From Thiobacillus denitrificans (GTDB lineage: Bacteria > Pseudomonadota > Gammaproteobacteria > Burkholderiales > Thiobacillaceae), in contig DYIY01000006.1 in assembly GCA_020723405.1 (NCBI GenBank), positions 62,001-126,000 of the forward strand: 64,000 bases of DNA, read 5' to 3'. Position numbers and translations under genes: made by a program. How positions within the stretch are numbered: the stretch's first letter is position 1; each line of letters starts with the position of its first letter. Under the pieces are notes generated by a model. It saw only the letters and a list, made by a program, of their open reading frames with translations, ran no database searches and was not told the origin of the DNA. Below are positions 20,899 through 54,147 of the stretch, one piece after another.

Positions 20899-23800
20899 AT
20901 GTTCACGCATATTTTCAAGCAAAGGCTGTCGCCGGCGACACCCCCCTGTTCGCTCAACCCCAGGGCACCGGCATGGAGGGCCGGCCGCCGAGGGAGCTTG
21001 GAACTCTGGGTGTACTTGCTGACCTGGTGTCTGAGGCTGGGGCGCCTGGGCCTTGTCAGCGCTGCCATGGTGGGGTTGCCCGGCTTGGCCCTCGCCGATC
21101 CACCCCGGCCCTATTCCACCGTCCCGGGATCCTGTGACGGCTTCGCCAACTACGCCGACGAATTGCAGGTATCCGGCTTCCAGATCGTCAGCCAGACCGA
21201 CCTGGGGGACGGGACCTCGGAAGTCAGCTTGAGCTTCCAGATGAACAATCTGGACGTGGGCGTGTTCTTCGGCGCCAGCGTCCTGGTCGATATGGCGGCC
21301 CTGGCGGATCTGGGGGCGGTGGGCGATTCCCTGGTCCCGGCCACCCTGGGCAACATCGCCGCCCGGGCCACCGGCCTGGTTCCGGCCACCGACCTGCGCC
21401 TGCGCCTGGCCAGCGAGCGCGTGGCCGAACTGCTCGATCGACTGAACAGTGGCCAGGTGCCCACGACCGTCCATGGGGCGGAGAACAACGTTCTGCAACC
21501 CGACGTGCGGGAACTGCTTTGGACATCCGTTGAGAACCTGTACTACCTGAATGCCAAGATCCTGGACCCCAGTGCCAATCCAGAGCCTGTGCCTCCATTT
21601 TCGAACGACCAGACGTTCCAGTTCTCGCTGGTGGATCTGGATGATCCGAATGGCACGTCCAGGGTCGATGAATGGGCTCCCGGCCTCAAGGTCTACATTC
21701 GTGAAGACCCCGCTGATCCCACGCCGGACATACCCGAAGTGCTGCGCAATGTGAGGATCATCGATGTGGACAAGGATCCCGGCGACATGGCGAATCCCCG
21801 CACGATCTGGACTGTCACCGTTCAGCGCACCCTGAACGAACACCCGGCGGAACTGTTCGTGAGCGGCAGCGGCTGCAGCGGAACCAATGCCCATGTGGAC
21901 CTGCCGGTGCACGCATCCCGGCTCCTGGCCCTGGACGGCACGGTTCAGGAGGATGCGACCCGGGATGGCAATCCCCAGCCGATCCGTTTCAACGAGATCC
22001 AGGTCACCCCAAACCTCACCCTCAGCGGCCAGGTGCAAGGCCACATCCTCAAGCCTGGCCTGGAACTGCGTTTCCGCAATGGCCAGCAACGGGTGGTGGG
22101 CGTATTCGACAACGATCTCACCTTCATGGCCGAAGCCCACGCCAGTGCGCGGGTGGAAGAGAGCGGCGAATTCAACCTGTACACCCTGTGTTTCCCGGTG
22201 AGAAACCTGACGGTGGGCCCCCTGGTCCTCGGCGTGAACCTGCAACTGGCCCATTACGTGGGGTTCGAGGGCAGTCTGGGGGCCGGGGCGGTGGTGGGGG
22301 CCCAGAAGCGCTTCCACAACCAGATCACCACGGGCTATGACAGCCGCTTGCCGGTGGAGGACCGGTATTTCAGCGATGCCCATGACCTGTCGCCGGACAT
22401 GGAGTTCACGCCGCCCCAACTGACCGACGAGACCGAGGTCCACGGCAAGCTCTACACCCGGATCCGGCCCACCCTGAGGGTTGGCGCCGCCTATCCGGAC
22501 TGTTCCACCGGGGTCGGGGTGTGGGCGGAGGTCAAGGGCTACGGCACCGTGGATGTGACGCCCACCCAGGATCCCTGGTGGACCCTGGGCGCCGGGGCCG
22601 ACCTATATGGCGGGATCGAACTGGATCTCTGGGGCCTGGACCTGGCCTCCTGGCAGAGCCCGCCCCACACCCTGGCCAGCACGGAAACCCGCAGTGCCGG
22701 GGGATTGGCGCTTCCGGCTTCAGCCCGCAGGGCCGCCCCTGTCCTGGAGGCCAGCACGACCCTCCGGGAGTCGGGCCGCGACCAGCGCTGGGCCATGGCC
22801 ATCGACGACATGGACTTCGCGACGGGGATCAGCAAGACCTCCATCGCCGCCACGGCGGACAATGGCGTCGTCATTGCCGCCCGGGAGAGGATCAATGGCC
22901 GCTCCCGGCTCATCCGCCTGGACGACCATGGCCGTTTTCTCTGGAGCCAGAAATACCATCTGTTGCAGGACGTCACGAAAGTCCTGGTCTTGCCGGACGG
23001 CAACCTGCTGGTGGCGGGTTATCCGTCCTGGCTGGCCAAGCATGACGGCGCCGGCAACCTGCTGTGGAGCCGGGATTACAAGCTGGCCCAGTCCGGCTCC
23101 AGCACCAGCCTGCCCTGCAACGTGAATGACGCCGCATTCCTGGAAACGTCACCCGGTCAATTTGATGTGCTCCTGGTGGGAAGGGCCTCCGTCAACGGCG
23201 ACTACCGGGCCTGCGCCCTCCGGGTCGACGGTGACGGCGACGTGCTGTGGGCCAAGAGTTACGACGGGGTGTCCACCCAGGAGTTCTACGGGGCCCAGCT
23301 TGCCCGGGATGGCCGGCTTGCCGTGGTGGGCCGCTGGGATGGCTACACCGGCGCCCAGATCAAGACCGCCGGGGTCATCGCCAAGCTGGATGTCGCCACG
23401 GGCGCCCCCGTCTGGGCAAAACGCATGTCCAACACCCTCTACCGGAACGGCAGCTTCAAGGCGGTGGCCGAAGGCGAGGACGGCACCCTGTTTGCCGTGG
23501 GTTCCATGGGGGGCATCATCACCCAGCGGGGCTCGGCCTCCCTGGCGCGCATCGCGGCGGATGGCAGCGACCCCCGCCACGCCCTGCTCACCCTGGACCA
23601 GGACTGGGAAGCCCTGCTGGATTTCGAGCCCTACGACGAAGCCCCCATCGGCTCCCATGACACCAGTGATCTCCTGCTGGCCATCACCCCCATGGCGAAT
23701 GGCTTCGCCGTGGCGGGTCACAGTGGCAGCAGGGTGGAAAACGCCGAGGCGGCCTGGCTGGCTAAGATCAACCCCAACCTGGGGGTCGAATGGTTCAGTA

Positions 23801-24483
23801 GCCTGGATGGCCTGCTCACCGACAAATTCGACGCCATCGCCCACACGCCCGACGGCCTGTTGCTGTCGGGCTGGAGCAGTTCCCTGGCCAGCCTGGGCCA
23901 GCCCAGTACCGACAATTGGCTGGTGGTGGCCAAGTATCCGGGCAATGGCCGTATCGGCTTGCTGCCCGAGGCGGAGGTCATGACGCGCTTCATGGAGCCC
24001 GGCGTCAGGGATTCGGGCAACGACCCGGCGGTATCCAATCCCGAAGTGGTCCTGGACGCCGACGTGAGCGTGGAAGACCTGGTGGTCCTGTCCCAGTCCC
24101 CCCTGTCCACGCCCCTTGCCACCCCCTCCCGCCTGTGCGTGACCAGGCTGACCGAAATGGGCCTGACCAGCACCCTGGATGCCTGCCAGGTGGATGCCGA
24201 CGGCGACGGGGTCGATGATGCCCTGGACAACTGCCCCAAGGTGGCCAATGCCGATCAACGGGACAGCAACGGCGACGGGTTCGGCAATCTCTGCGACGCC
24301 GACCTGGACAACAACGGGGTCGTCGATGCGCTGGACATCACCGCCTTCAAGTCCGCCTTCGGCAGCAGTGGCAGCAACCTGGACGCGGATTTCAACGGCG
24401 ACGGCTGGGTGAACACCCTGGACCTGGCCATCCTGAAAGGCCAGGTGGGCAAAGCCCCGGGGCTGGCGGTCACCCGGCCATGA
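20899..24483 (+). CDS. Large secreted protein with beta-propeller region and C-terminal dockerin-like repeats
   Basis: A 1194-residue exported protein. The signal is unusually long: about 45 residues precede the hydrophobic core (GLVSAAMVGLPGLALA), with cleavage near residue 70. The first half is beta-rich with no recognised catalytic motif. Residues about 630-1030 carry repeated short motifs of propeller type (DDHGRFLWSQKY, GNLLWSRDY, GDVLWAKSYD, GAPVWAKRM). From about 1100 a thrombospondin-3-like calcium repeat (DADGDGVDDALDNCPKVANA) leads into two dockerin-type EF repeats, DLDNNGVVDALDITAFKSAF and DFNGDGWVNTLDLAILKGQV, which end the protein. Start ATG 20899 has GAGGAGG upstream. The next gene encodes a cohesin-like protein, the usual dockerin partner. 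Confidence 0.8.
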   Translation: MFTHIFKQRLSPATPPCSLNPRAPAWRAGRRGSLELWVYLLTWCLRLGRLGLVSAAMVGLPGLALADPPRPYSTVPGSCDGFANYADELQVSGFQIVSQTDLGDGTSEVSLSFQMNNLDVGVFFGASVLVDMAALADLGAVGDSLVPATLGNIAARATGLVPATDLRLRLASERVAELLDRLNSGQVPTTVHGAENNVLQPDVRELLWTSVENLYYLNAKILDPSANPEPVPPFSNDQTFQFSLVDLDDPNGTSRVDEWAPGLKVYIREDPADPTPDIPEVLRNVRIIDVDKDPGDMANPRTIWTVTVQRTLNEHPAELFVSGSGCSGTNAHVDLPVHASRLLALDGTVQEDATRDGNPQPIRFNEIQVTPNLTLSGQVQGHILKPGLELRFRNGQQRVVGVFDNDLTFMAEAHASARVEESGEFNLYTLCFPVRNLTVGPLVLGVNLQLAHYVGFEGSLGAGAVVGAQKRFHNQITTGYDSRLPVEDRYFSDAHDLSPDMEFTPPQLTDETEVHGKLYTRIRPTLRVGAAYPDCSTGVGVWAEVKGYGTVDVTPTQDPWWTLGAGADLYGGIELDLWGLDLASWQSPPHTLASTETRSAGGLALPASARRAAPVLEASTTLRESGRDQRWAMAIDDMDFATGISKTSIAATADNGVVIAARERINGRSRLIRLDDHGRFLWSQKYHLLQDVTKVLVLPDGNLLVAGYPSWLAKHDGAGNLLWSRDYKLAQSGSSTSLPCNVNDAAFLETSPGQFDVLLVGRASVNGDYRACALRVDGDGDVLWAKSYDGVSTQEFYGAQLARDGRLAVVGRWDGYTGAQIKTAGVIAKLDVATGAPVWAKRMSNTLYRNGSFKAVAEGEDGTLFAVGSMGGIITQRGSASLARIAADGSDPRHALLTLDQDWEALLDFEPYDEAPIGSHDTSDLLLAITPMANGFAVAGHSGSRVENAEAAWLAKINPNLGVEWFSSLDGLLTDKFDAIAHTPDGLLLSGWSSSLASLGQPSTDNWLVVAKYPGNGRIGLLPEAEVMTRFMEPGVRDSGNDPAVSNPEVVLDADVSVEDLVVLSQSPLSTPLATPSRLCVTRLTEMGLTSTLDACQVDADGDGVDDALDNCPKVANADQRDSNGDGFGNLCDADLDNNGVVDALDITAFKSAFGSSGSNLDADFNGDGWVNTLDLAILKGQVGKAPGLAVTRP

Positions 24484-24560
24484 GCCCGGGCGGCCCCGTC
24501 CCGCGACGAATGACCAGATCGACGAGCACCCCGAATCGCCAACCCTTTGAGGAGACTGCC

Positions 24561-25136
24561 ATGAAGTATCTGCTTGCCCTGACCCTCATCCTGTTTACCC
24601 CCGTGCAGACCTGGGCCCAGGCGACTGCCCGGGTCGACGTGGAGCCCATCTGCTGCGCCGTCCCCCTGGGCGACGAAACGGTCATCACCCTGCTAGGCCT
24701 CTACGAGGGAGACGGCAACCTGCTGGGGGGGGCGGTGAATCTGGCCTTCGATCCCACGGTCGTGCAGGTGCTGGACGTGACCCTGCAAGTCGCGGACGCC
24801 TTCTTCAGCAACTCGGGCAGCATCGACAACACCCTGGGCCAGGTCAGCAACATCGGCTTTGCCAGCTTTGACGGCGTCAGCGGCAGTTTCGCCCTGGCCA
24901 CCGTGACACTCCAGGCCGTGGGCGTCGGCACCAGCAACCTGACGGTCAGCGACGCCAACCACCCCATCTTCGTCTGGGCCAACGATGTGCCGCCCTTCGG
25001 CGAATTGGTGAGCTTCGTGCCGGGAAGCCCGGTGCAGTTGACCGTGGCGGCCGTGCCCGAGCCGGAAACCTGGGCCCTGCTGCTGCTCGGCCTGGGGTTG
25101 ATCGGAGTGCGGAGGGGTCCGGCCTGGAGAGCCTGA
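24561..25136 (+). CDS. Cohesin-like domain protein with PEP-CTERM sorting signal
   Basis: A 191-residue protein: signal peptide to about residue 20, a cohesin-like beta-sandwich at about 22-160, then VPEPETWALLLLGLGLIG and a short basic tail (PEP-CTERM). Cohesin features are the strand pattern LGGAVNLAFDPTVVQVLDV and FALATVTLQAVGVGTSNLTV. Cohesins bind dockerins with calcium; PEP-CTERM signals direct processing by exosortase. It lies 77 bp after the dockerin protein gene with its own GAGGAG site, so the two are probably one operon. A CC pair (ICCAV) near the mature N terminus is unusual. Confidence 0.8.
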   Translation: MKYLLALTLILFTPVQTWAQATARVDVEPICCAVPLGDETVITLLGLYEGDGNLLGGAVNLAFDPTVVQVLDVTLQVADAFFSNSGSIDNTLGQVSNIGFASFDGVSGSFALATVTLQAVGVGTSNLTVSDANHPIFVWANDVPPFGELVSFVPGSPVQLTVAAVPEPETWALLLLGLGLIGVRRGPAWRA

Positions 25137-25158: not shown

Positions 25159-25563
25159 TCAAAGCGCGGCCAGGAAATCCGCCACGCTCTGCACCAGCAG
25201 GCCAGCCGCCTTGTCCCGGTCGTTCATCAGGAATCCGAAATCCCGCCGGTCTCCGGTCAGCAGTACGTCAGCCTTGCCCGCCAGGGCCGCCCGGAAAATG
25301 GGGCGGTCCTTTTCCGGCAGGGCGTCGGGACAGGCCAATCCAGGGTCGTCCGGCGCGAACCGAATTCCCTGGCATTGCTCGTTCAGCCGAACCAGGCAGT
25401 CGGGATACTTCCTGGCCAGATTGCGCCGGGCTTCCTCCAGGGCATAGGCGCTGGTCACCAGTTGCCAGAGACCTTCCCGGCCCAGTTCCATGACCAGGGC
25501 CGCCTTGCCTTGGGGGTTGTGAGCCGCCGTGAACAGCACGTTGGCGTCGAGAAACAGCCGCAT
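25159..25563 (-). CDS. PIN domain toxin (type II TA)
   Basis: A 134-residue PIN-fold protein: N-terminal FLDANVLF with the first acidic residue, conserved middle acidic residues, and LLTGDRRDFG near the C terminus. PIN toxins are metal-dependent RNases. The ATG overlaps the antitoxin stop by one base (TGATG); an in-frame GTG one codon earlier is possible. It converges on the cohesin gene with only 22 bp between stops. Confidence 0.85.
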   Translation of the reverse strand: MRLFLDANVLFTAAHNPQGKAALVMELGREGLWQLVTSAYALEEARRNLARKYPDCLVRLNEQCQGIRFAPDDPGLACPDALPEKDRPIFRAALAGKADVLLTGDRRDFGFLMNDRDKAAGLLVQSVADFLAAL

Positions 25564-25811
25564 CACTTGGCCTGGAGTCGGGCAAGGATGCGCTTTCTTT
25601 CGGAGGGCGTGAGTTTATCCTCCTTGTCCCACTGGACGATCTGTTCGTCGCTATAGCTGTCGATGCCCAGCACGGCGGCGGGCCGCAAGGTGAGTGCACC
25701 GTCCTTTTCCTCGATGAGGATCGCCCCCCCGGGTTCGATGCCCAGGTGTTTGCGCATGCTGGCGGGCAGAGTGATCTGGCCCCGTGGAGAGACGATGAGG
25801 GTTTCAGGCAT
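25563..25811 (-). CDS. AbrB/SpoVT-type antitoxin
   Basis: An 82-residue protein with the swapped-hairpin AbrB fold at residues 3-48 (VSPRGQITLPASMRKHLGIEPGGAILIEEKDGALTLRP), then a helical tail that would bind the toxin. It is directly upstream of and overlaps the PIN toxin gene. It should bind the toxin and repress the shared promoter in the 153-bp gap before rmuC, in which I see nothing else. Confidence 0.88.
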   Translation of the reverse strand: MPETLIVSPRGQITLPASMRKHLGIEPGGAILIEEKDGALTLRPAAVLGIDSYSDEQIVQWDKEDKLTPSERKRILARLQAK

Positions 25812-51742: not shown

Positions 51743-52432
51743 TCAGTTGCGGATTCCCTTACGGGTGGACCAGCCCACCAAGCCCAGCCTTGCCAGAAGC
51801 AGGGCCCAGGCCCCAGGTTCGGGAACGGCTAGTGGCGCAACCAGGCTGCGATACACCACATAGCCGGGATCCCAGGCATGGGTGTTGAATTCCGTGTCAT
51901 AGCTGATGAAGCGGGCGTCCTGATGCAAACCCGGTATCGCCCCCCAATCGAGTTGGATCCATCGTTTGCACTTTCCACTTGTACATCGAGCCAGATTGCG
52001 CCAGCGCTGAGGTCAGCCAGTTCGGAGGAGGCGACGGGCGGGGAAGCCGCGCCGACGAAGGCATCCATGTTCGCGGTGATGAGGTATTCCCAGTTGGCCA
52101 GATTGGTCGGTGTGCCGGACCGGGTTATCCGGATCGCTGGCATCCTCGAAGCCGATGCCGATGGGCAGGCGCCAGACGTCATAGGTCGTGCCGTGCCAGG
52201 TGACGCTGAATCAGCTGGCCCATCATAGCCTCGTACCAGGTCATGAAGCCGGTCTGGTAGCCGGAGTTCCAGGCCCGGTTGGTGTCCCGCAGCCAGATGA
52301 GGTTCTGGCCGGTGTCCCTGACCAGTCCGGGGGACTCCCCGGGGGTGCCGGGTCCAGGATGTCCAGGCCGGCCGTGGCGAACCCGGGCAGCAGGCCGAGG
52401 AGCAGGGCTGCAACAAGTTGCTTCGCCTTCAT
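51743..52432 (-). pseudogene. PEP-CTERM gene broken by several frameshifts
   Basis: A signal peptide (MKAKQLVAALLLGLLPGFATA) starts at 52432. Coding sense then moves between frames at least four times: DTGQNLIWLRDTNRAWNSGY, TYDVWRLPIGIGFEDASDPD, LITANMDAFVGAASPPVASS and HQDARFISYDTEFNTHAWDP are in different frames. It ends with AVPEPGAWALLLARLGLVGW and a basic tail. The pieces resemble PEP-CTERM proteins with a DUF1566-like body. The number of shifts argues for real decay and not a single base-calling error. Confidence 0.82.
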
Positions 52433-52440
52433 GATGGCCT

Positions 52441-52817
52441 TCAGTCATCAACTTGATGGGGCCTGCCCAGGCGCCATGCCAGCATTCCGAGGGCTACGCC
52501 CATCAGGGTCCAGGTTTCCGGTTCGGGCACCGGGGCCAGGAAGCCGGCCTTGGAGGTGATCCAGGCGCCGTCCGGCAGGTCGAAGGCGAGTTGGCCCGTC
52601 GCGTCCACCCAGGAATTCGCATGGGTGGCGCCCCCGATCAGGTATTAGCGCAGGCGGAAGTAAGGATGGGCGTCGGTCAGGGTGATGGCCTGGGTCTGAT
52701 CGTAATTGACGGTCAGCAGGCCGCTTTCGATGGTGCCCCAGTCCCCCACCACCCATTGGGGCCGGTTGCTTTGGGCGCCAGTTTCCCGGTCTTGCGGTCC
52801 ATGGTGGCGTGGGGCGA
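52441..52817 (-). pseudogene. PEP-CTERM gene remnant with in-frame stop
   Basis: One frame encodes WVVGDWGTIESGLLTVNYDQ, then AITLTDAHPYFRLR, a TAA at 52645-52647, then YLIGGATHANSWVDATGQ, ending VPEPETWTLMGVALGMLAWRL. The sorting signal is intact, but no signal peptide or start codon is found upstream, only a ribosome-site-like GAGGAGG. It is 5' truncated and interrupted. Confidence 0.78.
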
Positions 52818-52828
52818 TGCCTGCCTCC

Positions 52829-53431
52829 TCAGTCGATGCGGGTTTCCTGGGTCCGCGCCAGGCGCAGGCCGATCAGGCCCAGGCCGGCGAGCAACATGGC
52901 CCAGGTTTCCGCTTCGGGCACCGGACGGACGGCCATGACGCCCACGTAGGCGTAGGCATTGCCCGGGTACACCGCCACGTAGGCGCCGTTGCCGAAACTG
53001 AGGCCCCAGTAATTGGCCGTCCCGGGTACCGGGTCGTCGGTGTAGATGATCCGGCCGCCGTAGTCCTCGGCACCCAGGCCAAAGGGCCATTGGCTCCTGT
53101 CGGCCAGGGCTGTGGACAGATCGACGAACAGTTGTCCCAGGTCGCCGCCCATGGCGGCCGGCGGACTGCCGTCAGGGGGGGCTTCGACGCTGGGTAGCGC
53201 CCAGTCCGAGTAGCCACCCACCTTTTCCAGGTTCAGGCCGGCGACCCAGTCGATGGCGAAACCGGGAAAGCCATAGCTGGAGCCAAAGCCGATGCCGTGC
53301 AGCAGCCACATCCGCTGGGCCTCGGTATCCGTGAGGATGCCGGTGGCCGGGTCGTAGTCCAGGGCGGCCGCCGCCGGGGTGGGCAGGGCGGCGCAGATCG
53401 CCAGGGCCAGAGCATGGAGGAGGGTTTTCAT
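52829..53431 (-). CDS. PEP-CTERM sorting domain protein with variant PEA motif
   Basis: A 200-residue protein with a signal peptide (ALALAICAALPTPAAA), a body of DUF1566 type (MWLLHGIGFGSSYGF; GGYSDWALPSV; YYW-like GTANYWGLSFGNGAYVAVYPG), and a C-terminal signal reading VPEAETWAMLLAGLGLIG plus a tail with two arginines. PEA replaces the usual PEP, which may weaken exosortase recognition. It lies 26 bp after the upstream PEP-CTERM gene, so both are co-transcribed. Confidence 0.82.
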   Translation of the reverse strand: MKTLLHALALAICAALPTPAAAALDYDPATGILTDTEAQRMWLLHGIGFGSSYGFPGFAIDWVAGLNLEKVGGYSDWALPSVEAPPDGSPPAAMGGDLGQLFVDLSTALADRSQWPFGLGAEDYGGRIIYTDDPVPGTANYWGLSFGNGAYVAVYPGNAYAYVGVMAVRPVPEAETWAMLLAGLGLIGLRLARTQETRID

Positions 53432-53457
53432 GGGACTTTCCCTTTCAGCGTGGCCGT

Positions 53458-54147
53458 TCAGGTGCCGCGACCCCGCAACCGCAGGGCGGTCAGTCCGAGG
53501 CCGACGAGCAACATGGCCCAGGTTTCAGGTTCGGGGACCGGGGCCAGGGTCAGGCTGACCTGGGTGCCGGGATAGGCGGATTGTTGGACGCCCAGGGATT
53601 CATCCAGCCGATAGGAAATGGTGCCGTAGAGGAGGGCGGTCTGGCCCGGGTCCAACCAACCGTCGCCATCGTCGTCGAACGCCACGTAGTGGTCATATTG
53701 GGACAGGCCGGGCAGGCCCGAGGCCGGGTACAGGGCCGTGGCCAGGTCATAGCCGTAGGCCTGGTCGGTTTCGATGGCCAACTGGAAGATGACGTTCACA
53801 TAGGCCGACGACCAGGCGTGGGGGGGCTTCACCTGGCTGAACAAATCCCCGAAGCCGTTGATGTCGATTTGCAGTCCCCCATTGGCCAGGGGGGTGACCT
53901 GGGTATCCAGATGGGCGAAGGCCAGGGCGAACAGATCTTCGTCCGCCGCCTGGGCGTTCAGGTTGCCCGGATCGACGCCGGGATCGTACTGGTCGGCGAA
54001 GACCTGCAAGGCGAGCCCACCGTTGGCGCCCACCGAGGCGTTCGTATAGCGAATCTGCCAATCCAGGTCGGCGGCAGCCTGGGCCGAGGTGGCCGTACAG
54101 GCAAGCAAGCCCAGGGGGAGCAGGGATTTGATGGCTGAGGTTCTCAT
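53458..54147 (-). CDS. PEP-CTERM sorting domain protein
   Basis: A 229-residue protein: signal peptide (LLPLGLLACTATSAQA), a beta-rich body with an EF-hand-like stretch FDDDGDGWLDPGQTALLYG that could bind calcium, and the signal VPEPETWAMLLVGLGLTA with a tail RLRGRGT. It is the first gene of the PEP-CTERM array. ATG 54147 has AAGGAG upstream. A candidate sigma-54 promoter lies about 116 bp before the start. Confidence 0.83.
   Translation of the reverse strand: MRTSAIKSLLPLGLLACTATSAQAAADLDWQIRYTNASVGANGGLALQVFADQYDPGVDPGNLNAQAADEDLFALAFAHLDTQVTPLANGGLQIDINGFGDLFSQVKPPHAWSSAYVNVIFQLAIETDQAYGYDLATALYPASGLPGLSQYDHYVAFDDDGDGWLDPGQTALLYGTISYRLDESLGVQQSAYPGTQVSLTLAPVPEPETWAMLLVGLGLTALRLRGRGT

Follow-up and report, generated by a model that had tools for sequence, protein, structure and literature searches.

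Side-by-side genes for a dockerin-bearing exported protein and an exosortase-tailed cohesin in Thiobacillus denitrificans: a probable cargo-anchor pair

We analysed a 64,000-nucleotide stretch of Thiobacillus denitrificans DNA (hereafter the window) in which two adjacent genes on the plus strand encode a 1194-residue exported protein with a C-terminal dockerin (gene A, 20899-24483) and a 191-residue cohesin with an exosortase sorting tail (gene B, 24561-25136). Gene pairs of this kind recur across different families and orders of Proteobacteria, with one type of cohesin beside many unrelated cargo proteins, and genes A and B probably form a cargo-anchor unit in which an exosortase-sorted cohesin holds a dockerin-bearing cargo at the cell surface or in exopolysaccharide. 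A sequence-only reading of the window had cast the cohesin protein as anchor and the dockerin protein as cargo; the predicted folds and the conservation of the pair with unrelated cargos support these roles, and binding between the two is predicted. The same reading had described a single two-gene unit, which understates the case, since in other genomes anchors of this kind are found with many unrelated cargos.

Results

Gene B is a cohesin, as judged from matches within its family to the Pfam Cohesin model PF00963, from profile matches to known structures and from its predicted fold. In a family alignment of gene B and 37 relatives, 16 of the 38 members match PF00963, and the family profile retrieves cellulosomal cohesins from the PDB (3l8q, E 9.6e-9; 5lxv, 5.5e-6; 1qzn, 1.7e-5), its other matches there being mostly weak and spurious, for instance antibody light chains that align with the signal peptide. 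The AlphaFold model has a mean predicted local distance difference test (pLDDT) score of 89.2, and the first 40 PDB matches that Foldseek returns for it are all cohesins, with their jelly-roll fold; the Clostridium perfringens cohesin 2jh2 is among the best. The domain spans residues 20 to 163 approximately (24618-25049), is almost all beta strand and follows a signal peptide assigned by eye to residues 1-19 (24561-24617). An adjacent Cys-Cys pair (EPICCAVP, 24651-24656) lies just before the cohesin core and is not present in the relatives of another alignment (A1).

The protein ends in a PEP-CTERM tail (25050-25133) made up of a VPEPETW motif, a predicted hydrophobic helix (residues 170-183) and a basic end. 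Both models of this signal score above cut-off (PF07589, 31.6 bits against 20.7; TIGR02595, 22.6 bits), in agreement with the sequence-only reading. Because the tail alone drew unrelated proteins, so that a full-length search returned mostly sequences sharing just this element, we removed it for searching. Tail-less gene B gave five weak matches in 399 genomes of the order, one of them secretin-like and one, to a flagellar-hook-like protein (L035), judged to be chance and rejected as a relative.

Gene A carries the complementary module. Residues 1135-1182 (24301-24444) match Pfam Dockerin_1 PF00404 with 32.7 bits (cut-off 22.9), and are preceded by a thrombospondin type 3 (TSP3) calcium repeat (PF02412, 43.7 bits, cut-off 25) whose best stretch is residues 1094-1120 (24178-24258). 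The calcium ligands, read from the sequence, are intact in both EF-type (F-hand) loops (24301-24336 and 24388-24423), as D-D-N-D-D and D-N-D-N-D. A predicted model of the TSP3-dockerin region (pLDDT 85.2) has the dockerin 2y3n_B as its best fold match (target TM 0.79), with thrombospondin type 3 structures among the next. Open reading frame (ORF), size, coordinates, profile score and dockerin fold thus agree with the claim of an exported protein ending in two dockerin-type repeats. At the N terminus, an export signal with a long n-region (20899-21096) was assigned by eye, with cleavage suggested after ALA66 and an uncertain start codon. Outside the TSP3 and dockerin regions, a Pfam scan of gene A finds no family match, and the cargo part has no relative among 349 genomes of the order. 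The name 'propeller' earlier given to this protein is unconfirmed, its sole basis being a sub-threshold delta-60 match (E 0.076).

The genome that contains the window (4.15 Mb) holds one recognisable dockerin and one cohesin of the gene B kind, and the two adjoin. It encodes two exosortases above cut-off, XrtB (393 bits) and XrtA (320 bits), and 37 PEP-CTERM sites. Searches of the same genome for CBM3 and for GH5 cellulase gave no match, and no multi-cohesin scaffoldin array was found; with a single dockerin and a single such cohesin, we therefore rejected membership in a cellulosome. Inside the window, four of the PEP-CTERM tails occupy a span of 1.8 kb (51761-53541, minus strand) and look like a local cluster with possible gene fragments, as two of the four lie in short open frames, 67 and 89 residues long.

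The pair is conserved far beyond this genome. In a first genome survey, gene B relatives from other families proved to be immediate neighbours of dockerin ORFs (L032, L034 and L036, with more found later). A larger test used 77 named loci, which were retrieved solely by their TSP3-dockerin sequence, reach about 6 kb each way, and were searched with a cohesin profile that had been refined on the same loci in which cohesins were then counted. This gave 41 cohesin ORFs in 40 loci; because the dockerin query was built from paired dockerins, 40 of 77 is no estimate for dockerins at large. All 41 cohesin ORFs adjoin a dockerin ORF: 40 lie within 600 bp on the same strand, as determined by script, and the remaining one (L187) was found by reading to overlap its dockerin ORF by 22 bp. 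Random placement produced a mean of 3.9 adjacent cohesins and a maximum of 12 in 2000 trials. That two unrelated exported proteins are neighbours by chance, an explanation to which we give almost no credence, is refuted by this excess and is at odds with the recurrence of the pair in different families and orders. Taken with the cohesin fold of gene B and the dockerin fold of the gene A repeats, joint conservation leaves the proposal of the sequence-only reading intact on each point at which it could be tested.

Pairing is common, not universal. When whole genomes were searched starting from the cohesin, 10 of 17 short tailed cohesins had a dockerin neighbour by our own reading. Dockerin matches also occur inside frames of about 14,000 codons (G065:C2:109808 and G313:C17:270056); in both cases the contig also holds a tailed cohesin gene, at a distance of roughly 26 kb.

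The two members of the pair divide the labour. Among the 41 cohesins, 37 bear an exosortase-type tail (17 PEP-CTERM, 20 of VPxPA type) and 4 bear neither, and no such tail occurs in the 107 dockerin ORFs of the 77 loci. The PEP form prevails in Burkholderiales (Aquabacterium, Rubrivivax and others), and the VPxPA form in gammaproteobacteria such as Methylomonas and Thiohalobacter. Sorted by sequence, the cargo parts make up about two dozen groups, of which the largest has 14 members; a few fragments were too short to group. Identified cargos include peptidase C25, subtilase S8, alkaline phosphatase PhoX, MtrC-like multihaem cytochromes, di-haem peroxidase, multicopper oxidase, and RHS, FG-GAP and beta-helix repeat proteins; by eye, we also recognised metallophosphoesterases, a glucose/sorbosone dehydrogenase-like protein and a reprolysin-like protein. 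One type of neighbour common to cargos that are not related to each other is the pattern expected of an anchor.

Two sets of cargo proteins merit separate description. Methylomonas MtrC-type multihaem cytochromes end in dockerins in three loci (L149:3529-6309 and L164:4246-6291, identified by Pfam, and L150:3718-6291, identified by similarity to L164) with VPLPA-tailed cohesins adjoining, and are possible surface electron-transfer cargo. In a 1500-residue RHS protein (L134:7001-11500), the TSP3-dockerin region is internal (1179-1261) and is followed by an RHS part.

We then compared the two repeats within each of 20 non-redundant dockerins with 5000 shuffles. Repeats of one protein agree at loop positions 9, 10, 11, 13, 14, 17 and 20 far more often than shuffled repeats, and more weakly at positions 7 and 16; in these 20 dockerins, agreement at positions 2, 4, 15, 18 and 19 does not exceed that of shuffles. 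At positions 10 and 11, 15 of the 20 agree, against expectations of 3.1 and 4.0, a level of agreement reached in at most 1 of 5000 shuffles, and the residues there differ between proteins. These two positions are established determinants of cohesin specificity, and the dual binding of dockerins is based on their internal symmetry (PMC8063739). The match between repeats at recognition positions may therefore be read as a dual-binding signature; simple recent duplication is disfavoured because it would make all positions alike. Also in favour of partnership, cohesin distances rise with dockerin distances across pairs (r 0.76, and 0.56 when the C25 group is left out; shuffled maximum 0.26), although shared descent contributes to this correlation.

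It could be argued that the dockerin-type repeats are a mere calcium-stiffened C-terminal spacer and that the product of the neighbouring cohesin gene is no physical partner of theirs, given that TSP3 and EF-type repeats are common calcium modules and that cohesin-dockerin binding here is a prediction. We consider this highly improbable: the same neighbour is common to unrelated cargos, and a spacer does not predict repeats matched at recognition positions.

Together, these data suggest how the cargo-anchor unit might work. Protein A would be exported, its C-terminal dockerin loaded with calcium. Protein B would likewise be exported, and its C-terminal helix would keep it in the inner membrane, where an exosortase (XrtA or XrtB in this genome) would process it and remove the tail. 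The cohesin domain would then pass to the cell surface or to the exopolysaccharide matrix, and the dockerin of A would plug into it in a calcium-dependent manner, so that the cargo is retained and not lost to the medium.

The destination of the cohesin admits a second account, to which we assign somewhat less than an even chance: after exosortase cleavage the cohesin could be a soluble or exopolysaccharide-bound matrix protein, with cargo loaded into the extracellular matrix and not onto the cell. Exosortase genes sit among exopolysaccharide genes (PMC1569441), the PEP-CTERM protein PepA is needed for floc formation and has been proposed as a component of exopolysaccharide (PMC9850573), and relatives of gene B weakly resemble PepA. 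However, the final place of PEP-CTERM proteins is unsettled, and our data favour neither surface nor matrix. This account shares its cohesin-dockerin step with the cargo-anchor unit and differs in destination, so that the probabilities we attach to the two overlap.

An unlikely alternative is that the cohesin is a secretion adaptor and not a permanent anchor: it would retain the dockerin cargo, either in the periplasm or at the inner membrane, until a type II secretion machine takes it over. Secretin-like proteins in many genomes of the order bear a related cohesin-like module near the C terminus, which links cohesins to type II secretion elsewhere. By contrast, gene B is the only profile match in the genome of the window, which has no cohesin-bearing secretin, and the exosortase tail on 37 of the 41 paired cohesins implies export of the cohesin itself. 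The secretin-like proteins, of the type II secretion type and about 800 residues long (for example L033:19-1857), are a possible link between dockerin cargo and secretion.

Several observations weigh against a cargo-anchor unit. Scanned alone against Pfam, gene B does not reach the PF00963 cut-off, so that of the profile and fold checks proposed by the sequence-only reading, PF00404 for gene A and the cohesin fold for gene B held and PF00963 for gene B alone did not. A PDB search with the single sequence likewise gave no cohesin match, a PF00963 scan of its own genome gave no match, and a scan of genome contigs with gene B alone as query found nothing. The negatives of the single-sequence Pfam and PDB searches are misleading, because the family profile and the fold both give cohesin; the PF00963 miss is a matter of one model's sensitivity and not a test of fold or homology. 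In gene A itself, the recognition residues of the two repeats are AL and TL, an imperfect symmetry. The correlation of cohesin with dockerin distances is confounded by shared descent. About 7 of the 17 short tailed cohesins found cohesin-first have no adjacent dockerin gene. Finally, three paired cohesins (the second copy in L146, L177 and L193) lack an exosortase tail, as does a fourth, L180, that looks truncated.

Two of these loci are unusual in their own right. In L146, one dockerin gene is flanked by two cohesins (L146:1313-1879 and L146:5081-5575), one VPLPA-tailed and the other tail-less with a lipoprotein-like start (imperfect lipobox). The L177 cohesin (L177:1761-2240) lies beside a dockerin ORF and has a signal peptide and no tail, which raises the possibility that some pairs are released as soluble complexes.

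Discussion

The cellulosomes of Clostridium thermocellum and Ruminococcus flavefaciens consist of scaffoldin cohesins, enzyme dockerins and anchored cohesins, ScaE and OlpA among the last. The pair has in common with them the two folds, the calcium loops, recognition at positions 10 and 11, and an anchoring logic in which a cargo dockerin meets an anchored cohesin. It differs in having one cohesin per protein and one cargo gene beside it in place of a scaffoldin array, an exosortase tail, a Gram-negative host without detected GH5 cellulase or CBM3, and cargos that are mostly not glycosidases. The ScaE type of R. flavefaciens is a small sortase-anchored single-cohesin protein of Gram-positives that receives dockerin partners. 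It is a small anchored single cohesin, as the product of gene B would be, but it depends on sortase, and its partner is a scaffoldin and not the product of an adjoining cargo gene.

Cohesins and dockerins likewise occur outside cellulosomes in the NagJ-NagH pair of Clostridium perfringens (PDB 2ozn) and in ANME archaea, and were reportedly surveyed by Peer et al. in 2009 (as cited in PMC5244752). In the open-access literature, we did not find an exosortase-tailed cohesin with a paired cargo gene described for these noncellulosomal systems. In the same literature, to which our search was confined (subscription papers lay outside its scope), PEP-CTERM is findable as a term and is nowhere named together with cohesin or dockerin, and exosortase, cohesin and dockerin are co-mentioned in one paper only, without being linked as a pair. 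The role of cohesins and dockerins outside cellulosomes has been described as unknown (PMC5244752).

With PEP-CTERM/exosortase and VPLPA-CTERM/XrtD sorting (Haft 2006, PMC1569441), the pair shares the tripartite tail, and the genome of the window has, as in those systems, XrtA, XrtB and many other substrates. Here, in contrast, exosortase would sort an adaptor, and the tail-less protein that this adaptor binds would be an indirect class of substrate.

The pairing looks like a general means, apparently not described before, by which secreted proteins are fixed to the cell surface or the polysaccharide matrix. On balance, we lean towards a widespread, exchangeable display system of Proteobacteria in which the exosortase-sorted, tailed single cohesin is a socket for any exported TSP3-dockerin protein (peptidases, phosphatases, MtrC-like multihaem cytochromes, oxidases, large repeat proteins); dockerin positions 10 and 11 would determine specificity, and the genes of each pair would stay adjacent. 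If so, Gram-negative cohesins and dockerins outside cellulosomes would have exchangeable display as a main role, and many exported enzymes that lack an anchor, among them the outer-surface cytochromes of methanotrophs, should prove to be held through a neighbour. What exosortase-sorted proteins do is largely an open question, on which the pairing bears: noncellulosomal dockerins gain a likely partner, and a class of PEP-CTERM proteins gains a likely function. It would also offer a natural Gram-negative display pair for engineering.

Surroundings of the pair

The gap between the two genes is 77 bp (24484-24560, plus strand), the length given by the sequence-only reading, and contains a Shine-Dalgarno-like GAGGAG at 24549-24554. 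We found no terminator-like site in this spacer, from which co-transcription of genes A and B is likely, and no sigma-54 site near the pair. A small PIN-like gene, VapC-type by eye (25159-25566, minus strand), is convergent with gene B, the two stop codons lying 22 bp apart, and is apparently unrelated to the pair.

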